DNA of 64,000 bases from Paenibacillus hamazuiensis (GTDB taxonomy: Bacteria; Bacillota; Bacilli; Paenibacillales; NBRC-103111). The stretch is from NCBI RefSeq assembly GCF_023276405.1, contig NZ_JALRMO010000001.1:5146001-5210000 (forward strand). The letters are read 5' to 3'. A program made the position numbers and the translations under genes. Below, piece by piece: positions 24,000 to 26,434 of the stretch (positions are counted from its first letter, which is position 1; each line of letters begins with the position of its first letter). The notes beneath the pieces are model-generated. The model was not told the origin of the DNA. It made no database searches and saw only the letters and a program-made list of their open reading frames with translations.

Positions 24000-24023
24000 A
24001 CCATGTTCAGGAGGCTTATCGCA

Positions 24024-24593
24024 ATGAGAATCTCGTTAACCACCGGGGAAGCCGCCCCCGATTTCACATTCGTGGATGCCGGCGGCAAATCCGTCCGCTT
24101 AAGCGACTTGCGGGGCCGCAAGGTGCTGCTTGCTTTTTTCCGCAATGCCGCCTGCGCGCTCTGCAATTTGCGGGTGCGGCATTTTATCCGCCGTTATGAC
24201 TTGTGGCAAAGGGATGGGCTGGAGGTCATCGCCGTGTTCGAATCGCCTGATGCGAGCATGTCCCGGCATGTCGGCACGCAGGAAGCGCCGTTCCCTTTGA
24301 TCGCCGATCCGGAAGGCAAGCTGTACGGCCGGTACGGCGTCGAGGTGTCCGAAGAGAAGGTGCAGGCGACGATGGCCGATGCGGCCACACAGTCGTTCGT
24401 TAAGGAGGCGGCGGCCGAAGGTTTCGCTTTGACTCATGAGGAAGGCTCGAACTTCTACCGGATCCCGGCCGAATTTCTGATCGACGAGCGCGGCATCATC
24501 CAGGTTGCGCATTACGGCCGGCTCGTGACGGATCATTTGCCGCTGGAGGAGATCGATCGGTTCGCCGCCGGGAGCAGCGGCGAAGCGCACTAG
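24024..24593 (+). CDS. Peroxiredoxin-like (AhpC/TSA, redoxin) protein
   Basis: A 189-residue thioredoxin-fold protein: GEAAPDFTFVDAGGKSVRLS is the standard AhpC/TSA entry and LLAFFRNAACALCNLRVRHF carries a Cys-x-x-Cys pair (CALC) at the active-site helix, instead of the single peroxidatic Cys in the usual PxxxT/SxxC. It thus belongs to the redoxin-like group that may act as a thiol peroxidase or reductase. ATG 24024 is used because AGGAGG lies 9 bases upstream; the ATG at 24003 has no such site. Its stop is the last coding signal before the 113-bp repeat array. Confidence 0.88.
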   Translation: MRISLTTGEAAPDFTFVDAGGKSVRLSDLRGRKVLLAFFRNAACALCNLRVRHFIRRYDLWQRDGLEVIAVFESPDASMSRHVGTQEAPFPLIADPEGKLYGRYGVEVSEEKVQATMADAATQSFVKEAAAEGFALTHEEGSNFYRIPAEFLIDERGIIQVAHYGRLVTDHLPLEEIDRFAAGSSGEAH

Positions 24594-24636: not shown

Positions 24637-25698
24637 CCGAGAGCGCTTTATCGCGCTCTCGGACCACGGCCGAGCGACTCTTCGCGGCCGAGCGAGTCTT
24701 CGCGGCCGAGAGACGCTTTTTCACGCTCTCGGCCTTCCTTCACGCTCTTCGCTCAGCCCAAGCCCGCCCGAGAGCGCTTTTTCACGCTCTCGGGCGATGG
24801 CCGAGCGAGTCTTCGCGGCCGAGCGACGCTTTTTCCCGCTCTCGGCATTCCTTCCCGCTCTTCGCTCAGCCCAAGTCCGTCCGAGAGCGCTTTTTCCCGC
24901 TCTCGGACCACGGCCGAGCGACTCTTCGCGGCCGAGAGACGCTTTTTCCGCCTCTCGGCATTCCTTCACGCTCCTCGCTCAGCCCGAACCCGCCCGAGAG
25001 CGCTTTTTTACGCTCTCGGGCGATGGCCGAGCGAGTTTTCGCGGCCGAGAGACGCTTTTTCCGCCTCTCGGCATTCCTTCACGCTCCTCGCTCAGCCTAA
25101 GCCCGCCCGAGAGCGCTTTTTCTCGCTCTCGGGCGATGGCCGAGCGAGTTTTCGCGGCCGAGAGACGCTTTTTCCGCCTCTCGGCCTTCCTTCACGCTCT
25201 TCGCTCAGCCCAAGTCCGCCCGAGAGCGCTTTTTCCCGCTCTCGGGCGATGGCCGAGCGAGTTTTCGCGGCCGAGAGACGCTTTTTCCGCCTCTCGGCCT
25301 TCCTTCACGCTCCTCGCTTCGCCAAAACTCGCCCGAGAGCGCTTTTTTACGCTCTCGGGCGATGGCCGAGCGACTCTTCGCGGCCGAGAGACGCTTTTTC
25401 CGCCTCTCGGCCTTCCTTCACGCTCTTCGCTCAGCCCAAGTCCGCCCGAGAACGCTTTTTCCCGCTCTCGGACCACGGCCGAGCGACTCTTCGCGGCGGA
25501 GAGACGCTTTTTCCGGCTCTCGGCCTTCCTTCACGCTCTTCGCTCAGCCCGAACCCGCCCGAGAGCGCTTTTTCCCGCTCTCGGACCACGGCCGAGCGAC
25601 TCTTCGCGGCGGAGAGACGCTTTTTCCGCCTCTCGGCCTTCCTTCACGCTCTTCGCTTCGCCCAAACCTGCCCGAGAGACGCTTTTTCCGCCTCTCGG
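24637..25698. repeat. Array of 113-bp tandem repeats built from hairpins
   Basis: Nine tandem units start at 24637, 24768, 24881, 24994, 25107, 25220, 25333, 25446 and 25559, and a shortened tenth at 25672. The period is exactly 113 bp except for the first unit (131 bp), which has an 18-bp internal duplication. Each unit holds two related hairpins: A, CCGAGAGCG-loop-CGCTCTCGG, and B, CCGAGAG-(ACGCTTTTTCCGC)-CTCTCGG. They are separated alternately by a short spacer of about 24 bases and a long one of about 36, so about 19 hairpins occur in 1.06 kb. Stems are nearly invariant, while changes gather in the loops (CTTTTTCAC, CTTTTTCCC, CTTTTTTAC, CTTTTTCTC) and spacers. The array fills the space between the convergent peroxiredoxin and SDR genes. 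Because stops are absent, several frames on both strands stay open and give false proteins. Function unknown. Confidence 0.97.
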
Positions 25699-25708
25699 CC
25701 TTCCTTCC

Positions 25709-26434
25709 CTACTTAAGCCGTAAACCGCCGTCAACCTCAAGCACCGTACCGGTCACAAACGTGTTGTCGATCAAATAACATATCGCTTTGGCGATATCCT
25801 CCGGCTGTCCGACTCTTCCGACGGGCGCCTGGTCTTCGTAAAACTTCAGCGCGGCGGCCCGCTGTTCTTCCGGCAGCCAGTTCCACCACGGCGTGTCCAC
25901 AACTCCCGGGGACACCGCGTTTACCCGCAGAGGCGCCAGCTCAACCGCCAAAATGGGCACCATAGCTTCTATCGCGGCATTGATGGCGGCGAGTCCGGAA
26001 ATACCCGGAGAAACGTTGCGGGCCGAAATCGCGGTAAGAAACGTGATGGAGCCGTTGCTGTTGATCGTATCCAGGCTGAGCTGCGCGGACATGATCTGCG
26101 GCCAAAATTTCGCTTCGAAACCTCCGCGCAATTCATTCAGCGGAAGCTCGCGGAAGTTCCCCGCTCCTTTGGCTCCGGAGACGGTGATCACGAGATGGTC
26201 GAAGCCGCTTTGACGGGAATAAAAAGCTTTCAGATCGTCGGCGGAGGAAGCATCGACCTGCTCCCCGCGCGCCTTGGGGCCGAGCAGCTGAAGTGCGGCA
26301 TCGATCTTGGCTCCGTCGCGGCCGGCTACAACGACCTCCGCTCCCTCTTCGACCAGCAAACGGGCCGCTGCAAGCCCGATTCCCGACGTTCCTCCCATAA
26401 CGATCGCGCGTTGTCCCACCATACCATTTGCCAT
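25709..26434 (-). CDS. SDR family oxidoreductase
   Basis: A 241-residue short-chain dehydrogenase. The NAD(P)-binding motif is GGTSGIGLAAARLL (about 15-28), with VVAGRDGAKIDA after the second strand. The usual Tyr-xxx-Lys is not clear: the segment after SITFLTAIS reads ARNVSPGISGLAAINAAIEA, with Asn where Lys is expected and no Tyr, so catalysis may be altered or lost. The C-terminal part is normal (RVNAVSPGVVDTPWW, GQPEDIAKAICYLIDNTFVT, LEVDGGLRLK). Divergent from the tetR gene and under a promoter with the TetR-type palindrome in its spacer. Its stop abuts the 113-bp array. Confidence 0.9.
   Translation of the reverse strand: MANGMVGQRAIVMGGTSGIGLAAARLLVEEGAEVVVAGRDGAKIDAALQLLGPKARGEQVDASSADDLKAFYSRQSGFDHLVITVSGAKGAGNFRELPLNELRGGFEAKFWPQIMSAQLSLDTINSNGSITFLTAISARNVSPGISGLAAINAAIEAMVPILAVELAPLRVNAVSPGVVDTPWWNWLPEEQRAAALKFYEDQAPVGRVGQPEDIAKAICYLIDNTFVTGTVLEVDGGLRLK

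Follow-up and report, generated by a model that had tools for sequence, protein, structure and literature searches.

Helically phased, replication-oriented hairpin arrays in Paenibacillus hamazuiensis and its relatives: a possible DNA-level scaffold

At plasmid centromeres and iterons, evenly spaced sites on one face of the helix nucleate a nucleoprotein filament, while FtsK/SpoIIIE-type and Chi-type skewed motifs are single short DNA signals oriented along the replichores. CRISPR arrays combine regular repeats with unique spacers, and REP/BIME elements are short extragenic palindromes, often clustered and present in many copies per genome. REP families carry tags such as GTAG or CGTC at the palindrome end and have a cognate RAYT/TnpA-REP (PMC3733652). 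Borg tandem repeats are described as fast-evolving repeats of archaeal elements with perfect-copy units, many of them intergenic and with a strand-biased composition per replichore (PMC9879509).

The array described here lies in a 64-kb window (the whole stretch of Paenibacillus hamazuiensis DNA analysed, 64,000 nucleotides) and belongs to a family of arrays which resembles each of these systems in part. The even spacing of sites on one helix face is shared with plasmid centromeres and iterons, but here dozens of chromosomal arrays exist and their sites can form hairpins. Replichore orientation is common to the FtsK/SpoIIIE- and Chi-type motifs, which are single and short, whereas the present arrays are large and phased. 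Like REP/BIME elements, the arrays consist of extragenic palindromes of 20–40 bp, as judged with a rough ORF caller; unlike them, each array keeps one orientation, linkers differ between arrays, and spacing in helical turns and a replichore bias are found. Fast evolution, intergenic sites and a replichore-linked strand bias also recall the Borg repeats, which are, however, archaeal and built of perfect-copy units, and helical phasing is absent from the passages on them (PMC9879509). CRISPR was ruled out, in accordance with the first-pass annotation of the window, because linkers are homogeneous within an array instead of being unique spacers. To our knowledge, no known repeat class unites spacing by whole turns, orientation along the replichores and stems that covary around a conserved core, and no earlier description of such arrays was found among the titles and abstract openings of the literature searched.

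The nine 113-bp repeats with a lengthened first unit, as proposed in the first-pass annotation, were recovered by TRF (period 113, 9.0 copies, 91% matches, no indels, score 1609), together with an extra 18-bp repeat (Table 1). About 19 hairpins of two kinds had been claimed as well: a script search found 18 of the 19 with a T4–T6 loop, the first one, read from the sequence, has the loop TTTA, and the span from GAGAG to CTCTC alternates between 22 and 23 nt. The two alternating conserved spacers correspond to linkers of 29 and 39 bp, homogeneous within the array. Accordingly, hairpin centres in the regular part advance by alternating steps of 51.5 and 61.5 bp, the final step being 62 bp; the first two centres, read from the sequence, are about 69.5 bp apart and fall outside this rhythm because of the 18-bp duplication, which breaks the helical phase. 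The view that stems are almost invariant held (conservation among units 0.93–1.00 in the arms), while the variation ascribed to loops and linkers was overstated (0.99 and 0.93 in the loops, 0.92 in the linkers). A coding repeat was rejected, again as annotated. Spurious ORFs of up to 308 aa lie within 24797–25723 of the window and carry a risk of mistaken gene annotation.

Table 1. Coordinates of the array, its parts and its neighbouring genes in the window.
Feature	Position	Strand	Remarks
Left neighbour, AhpC/TSA-redoxin family protein	24003..24593	+	converges on array
Whole array	24637..25698	+	19 hairpins, 18 with T-run loop, unit 113 bp; T-strand on +
First hairpin, type A, loop TTTA	24637..24662	+	read from sequence
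18-bp tandem duplication, 2.9 copies	24667..24718	+	TRF; lengthens first unit
Regular part, nine 113-bp units	24686..25698	+	TRF and hairpin script
Representative type B hairpin CCGAGAGACGC-TTTTT-..CTCTCGG	24706..24732	+	hairpin script
Representative type A hairpin CCGAGAGCGC-TTTTT-..GCTCTCGG	24768..24793	+	type A recurs at 113-bp steps up to 25559-25584
Other type B copies	113-bp steps up to 25610; last copy at 25672-25698	+	
Right neighbour, short-chain dehydrogenase/reductase	25709..26434	-	converges on array

This genome carries at least 35 such arrays (132 modules of the covariance model R1): grouping of the R1 modules by hand gave 34 for the 8.77-Mb contig, and a 25-kb contig has a single one. 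These numbers are a lower bound, since scoring covered 150 of the 6215 first-look candidates. When 40 genomes, P. hamazuiensis included, were searched at the DNA level, related arrays turned up in P. hamazuiensis only. At the 18 sites examined first, the linker measured exactly 29 bp in 77 and exactly 39 bp in 67 of the 159 gaps. Linkers are divergent between arrays, and their consensus sequences share 39–40% identity compared with 30–32% for shuffled letters, which makes a distant common origin likely; the 113-bp unit may consequently be inherited rather than selected anew in each array, and the spacing would then be partly inherited. Linkers are strongly C-rich in P. hamazuiensis (skew -0.215) and mildly so elsewhere (-0.064). 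The positions of the arrays along the chromosome are not regular (coefficient of variation of the gaps 1.19, compared with 0.96 for random positions). Besides its one array, the 25-kb contig has ORFs whose translations resemble phosphoglucose isomerase, transketolase and nitrite reductase, as well as a transposase-like ORF close to its end; judged by the translations, it gives the impression of an unplaced chromosome segment.

One of three prominent properties of the family is its spacing. In 128 arrays (131 minus three doubled loci, 18 of them from P. hamazuiensis, and each with at least one distance of 49–53 bp), T-centred palindromes mostly lie 41, 50–53 or 61–63 bp apart, i.e., about four, five or six turns of B-DNA, which places them on one side of the helix, with a spacing in integral helical turns as in phased arrays. 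This count comes from the looser of two T-run detectors, whose peaks are those of the other one. The latter, which asks for a T-run with complementary arms and by which some overlapping loci were counted twice, gave distances of 41, 49–53, 61–62, 93 and 100 bp, the interval from 53 to 61 bp being empty. In a pattern scan of the family that allowed 39–69 bp, all 34 matches (in 7 of the 104 genomes) were spaced by 50–52 or 62–63 bp, and a control with the reversed pattern returned none. Among the 58 non-modal array-distances of 35–49 or 53–76 bp, 48 were found at 41–42 or 61–63 bp and 10 elsewhere; outside P. hamazuiensis, the share was 21 of 28. For all 111 non-modal distances, some of which are sums across a missed hairpin, the best period tried was 10.35–10.4 bp with a phase near 0 (R = 0.71; like the other phase statistics given here, this value ignores shared ancestry), while periods of 10 to 11 bp fit the 35–76 bp set alone about equally. 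Larger units are composed of the same steps, with 113/114 = 52+62, 144 = 52+41+51 and 155 = 52+62+41. Off-phase distances occur as well (36.5, 45.5, 47, 47.5, 54, 59, 66, 73.5 and 75.5 bp, and some shorter or longer ones), although the looser detector also reports 6.7 chance hairpins per 10 kb of reversed sequence.

The first-pass annotation had taken the conserved stems as a sign that structure is selected and had asked for compensatory changes. The core AGNCGNTTTTTNCGNCT is present in many relatives, with GAGAG...CTCTC stems in P. hamazuiensis. An earlier count on hairpins chosen by palindromy was biased and was therefore repeated on 101 array groups chosen by the core pattern: at positions left free by the search pattern, 458 of 606 cells pair where 274 are expected (reached in none of 1000 shuffles), and the signal ends about 12 bp from the palindrome centre. 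One stem position shows a recurrent T.T mismatch in 30 of the 101 groups. Stems thus covary between arrays of different species, and structure matters in this sense. Within P. hamazuiensis the expectation was borne out only weakly: pairs changed on both sides number 7 compared with a shuffled mean of 7.0. Three other measures slightly exceed the shuffles, among them the covariation score (0.115 compared with 0.100, reached in 9 of 500 shuffles), an excess that kinship among the sequences alone can produce, and the stem of this genome rather appears conserved than clearly covarying.

A second property is polarity. In P. hamazuiensis, the T-strand is located on the lagging, C-rich strand in 33 of the 34 chromosomal arrays (p = 4e-9), being the + strand in 18/18 arrays of one replichore and the - strand in 15/16 of the other. 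In this genome, dnaA lies at 6.861 Mb, and GC skew, sampled at 20 points, changes its sign in the interval from 2.32 to 2.74 Mb, while a single sample, at 7.58 Mb, deviates; the sign of the local skew agrees with the T-strand in 32 of the 34 arrays. The only misoriented array occupies 7,480,898–7,481,102; in the region of about 7.48–7.60 Mb nearby, skew is reversed at 7.58 Mb and almost vanishes at 7.50 and 7.65 Mb, and perhaps the array sits beside a small inversion. In other species, the T-strand is the C-rich strand of the 8-kb locus in 74 of 87 arrays, though this measure depends in part on the direction of the genes. Among the matches listed for five complete relatives, 40 of 55 arrays agree with the replichore (p = 0.001; 19/24, 12/17, 5/6, 3/5 and 1/3 per genome, and 36/47 without the two mixed genomes), where positions were taken by eye, the terminus was assumed to lie opposite dnaA and one match in relative G119 stands outside the count. 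The orientation bias is hence strong in P. hamazuiensis, moderate in one relative and singly not significant in the others, two of which show no bias when taken alone.

Across the family, R1 matched 18 of the 104 genomes in 5 of 22 genera, and the matched relatives differ in stems and linkers while having a similar anatomy. A second model, R2, built from 55 diverse modules and applied at E 1e-6 with strict filters, matched 38 of the 104 genomes in 12 of 22 genera, leaving 66 without a match at this setting. The one same-genus genome searched, the draft G001, gave no match to R1 or R2. Together, these absences make any function look dispensable and limit how essential it can be. At class level, R2 matched 10 of 398 genomes, namely P. 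hamazuiensis itself, four genomes from a different family within the order (one of which gave a single match), a more distant one that gave 12 matches and four in which there is one weak match each. With a free-gap pattern, named GTDB genomes yielded at least 120 stretches, 94 of those listed being from Cohnella and Paenibacillus; the matches listed also include six from a MAG labelled Alicyclobacillus and 20 from unrelated taxa, the latter being taken as chance and dropped before the covariation, spacing, local-skew, linker-skew and ortholog comparisons. Arrays with other cores may escape the models and patterns used.

The array of the window is located between convergent genes (Table 1), as originally annotated. 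For the chromosomal arrays of P. hamazuiensis, a convergent setting was found in 12 of 34 compared with 28 of 134 background gaps, an excess which is not significant (p = 0.11) and in which the two ORF callers compared differ slightly in minimum length. Close relatives of the redoxin (61–74% identity) are encoded in 5 of 10 genomes searched. Downstream of this gene, Cohnella xylanilytica carries an array of five hairpins, 51–52 bp apart and with yet another stem, while in the other four redoxin-bearing genomes, including G001, no array was found within the stretch of about 1.5 kb that the loci cover. Between the redoxin gene and the array of C. xylanilytica, similar repeats form a further run, in which T-centred hairpins are lacking (locus L228, ~2040–2430).

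Of the options offered in the first-pass annotation, a DNA-level scaffold for a protein is favoured, a structured RNA is weakened by spacing and replichore orientation, and a selfish repeat became a serious rival. Spacing by whole turns and orientation along the replichores belong to double-stranded DNA and to replication, not to a transcript, which points to DNA rather than RNA. We tentatively regard the arrays, with a confidence somewhat short of an even chance, as a dispersed DNA-level element whose hairpins face one helix side and which would probably serve as scaffold for a putative dimeric protein. Each unit carries a T-centred palindrome able to form a hairpin, and successive palindromes, about whole turns apart, present the same DNA face. 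Most likely, the palindrome would act as docking or extrusion site of the putative dimeric DNA-binding protein, and dimers on the same face could touch their neighbours to give a continuous filament or a bend. The direction of the T-strand relative to the replication fork would set the polarity of such a filament, which may have a role in chromosome organisation, in replication or in the protection of gene ends. Turnover keeps the units within an array alike, so that linkers shift while spacing, core and polarity persist. Rather unlikely in its full extent, though in keeping with this scaffold reading, is a polar chromosome element of the Paenibacillaceae and relatives, selected for geometry and polarity, in which the one-face hairpin sites would nucleate an oriented filament, mark the direction of replication and organise or protect the chromosome at gene ends, while its sequence would turn over freely. 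A protein reading the core alone would not need covariation of the outer stem, which counts against a scaffold, as do the apparent dispensability, the possible inheritance of the 113-bp unit, the weaker orientation in relatives, the off-phase distances and the break of phase at the 18-bp duplication.

A selfish or neutral hairpin minisatellite, expanded by replication, with inherited unit length and without host function, is quite possible, even if we rank it behind the phased scaffold. Hairpins on the nascent lagging strand favour expansion and those on the template favour loss, so that arrays with T-strand hairpins would survive in one orientation; template-switch correction of imperfect palindromes could keep the arms complementary and thereby yield stem covariation. 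In other systems, hairpin repeats are known to be unstable in an orientation-dependent way (PMC3310812). Orientation, turnover and patchiness, including the lack of a match in G001, are accounted for in this way. Turnover is fast: at an orthologous intergenic site of Paenibacillus sp. Soil766 and Soil750, whose flanks are 89–90% identical, a 51-bp and a 52-bp array share core and orientation but differ in linkers and outer stems, and orthologous sites can hence hold wholly different units. The weak relatedness of the linkers in P. hamazuiensis fits as well, and on the T-strand G.T mismatches (31 where 70 are expected) are tolerated more than C.A mismatches (10 where 54 are expected), the pattern predicted when it is the T-strand hairpin that counts. 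What a selfish repeat leaves unexplained are the changes of distance by about one turn (41, 52, 62) that make up the 48 of 58 non-modal array-distances mentioned above.

Intrinsically curved DNA, in which T-tracts every 4–6 turns would sum to a planar bend and hairpin symmetry would be secondary, appears improbable. T-runs do stand in phase at the palindrome centres, where their universality is partly due to detectors that required a T-run, but covariation of a stem of 10–11 bp would be superfluous for curvature.

Still less probable is a structured RNA, i.e., a many-hairpin transcript acting as RNA scaffold or as protector of 3' ends. Covarying stems would suit it, as would the position of many arrays past gene ends, according to the rough ORF caller, with 12 of 34 in convergent settings, and very stable folding: the 231 nt at 24960–25190 fold far below shuffles on both strands (z -8.5 on + and -11.1 on -). 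An RNA would, however, explain neither helical-turn spacing nor the replichore orientation kept by the five tandem arrays beside head-on genes, and the G.U-tolerant T-strand is antisense to its neighbours in most tandem settings (13 of 18 in P. hamazuiensis, 25 of 32 in other species). A known RNA family was rejected, with no Rfam match at the gathering score in the whole 64-kb window.

REP- or IS200-like single-strand mobile elements, which a Y1 transposase would insert in the template of the lagging strand, would likewise be palindromic, extragenic and replication-oriented, and P. hamazuiensis has four PF01797 (Y1_Tnp) matches, but we consider them very improbable and disfavour the mobile REP model, since PF01797 had no match in the five array-bearing relatives searched (nor in G001), by which IS200/IS605 relics were rejected too, and no constant tetranucleotide of the GTAG/CGTC type adjoins the hairpins across arrays, as judged by eye. 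Consistent with the original annotation, the window array contains no IS.

The combination of features suggests that in many large-genome Firmicutes DNA geometry, rather than sequence, is kept, and it opens the search for a putative DNA-binding protein, architectural or linked to replication, to direct testing. Should the arrays be selfish instead, they would preserve a natural record of how hairpin repeats expand in bacteria depending on their orientation. Among the minor observations, the arrays of the MAG labelled Alicyclobacillus are spaced by about 52 bp, and a two-core match at 51–52 bp is found on three IMG/VR viral contigs. Several family genomes, finally, harbour a sub-family with three hairpins per unit and periods of 144 and 155 bp.
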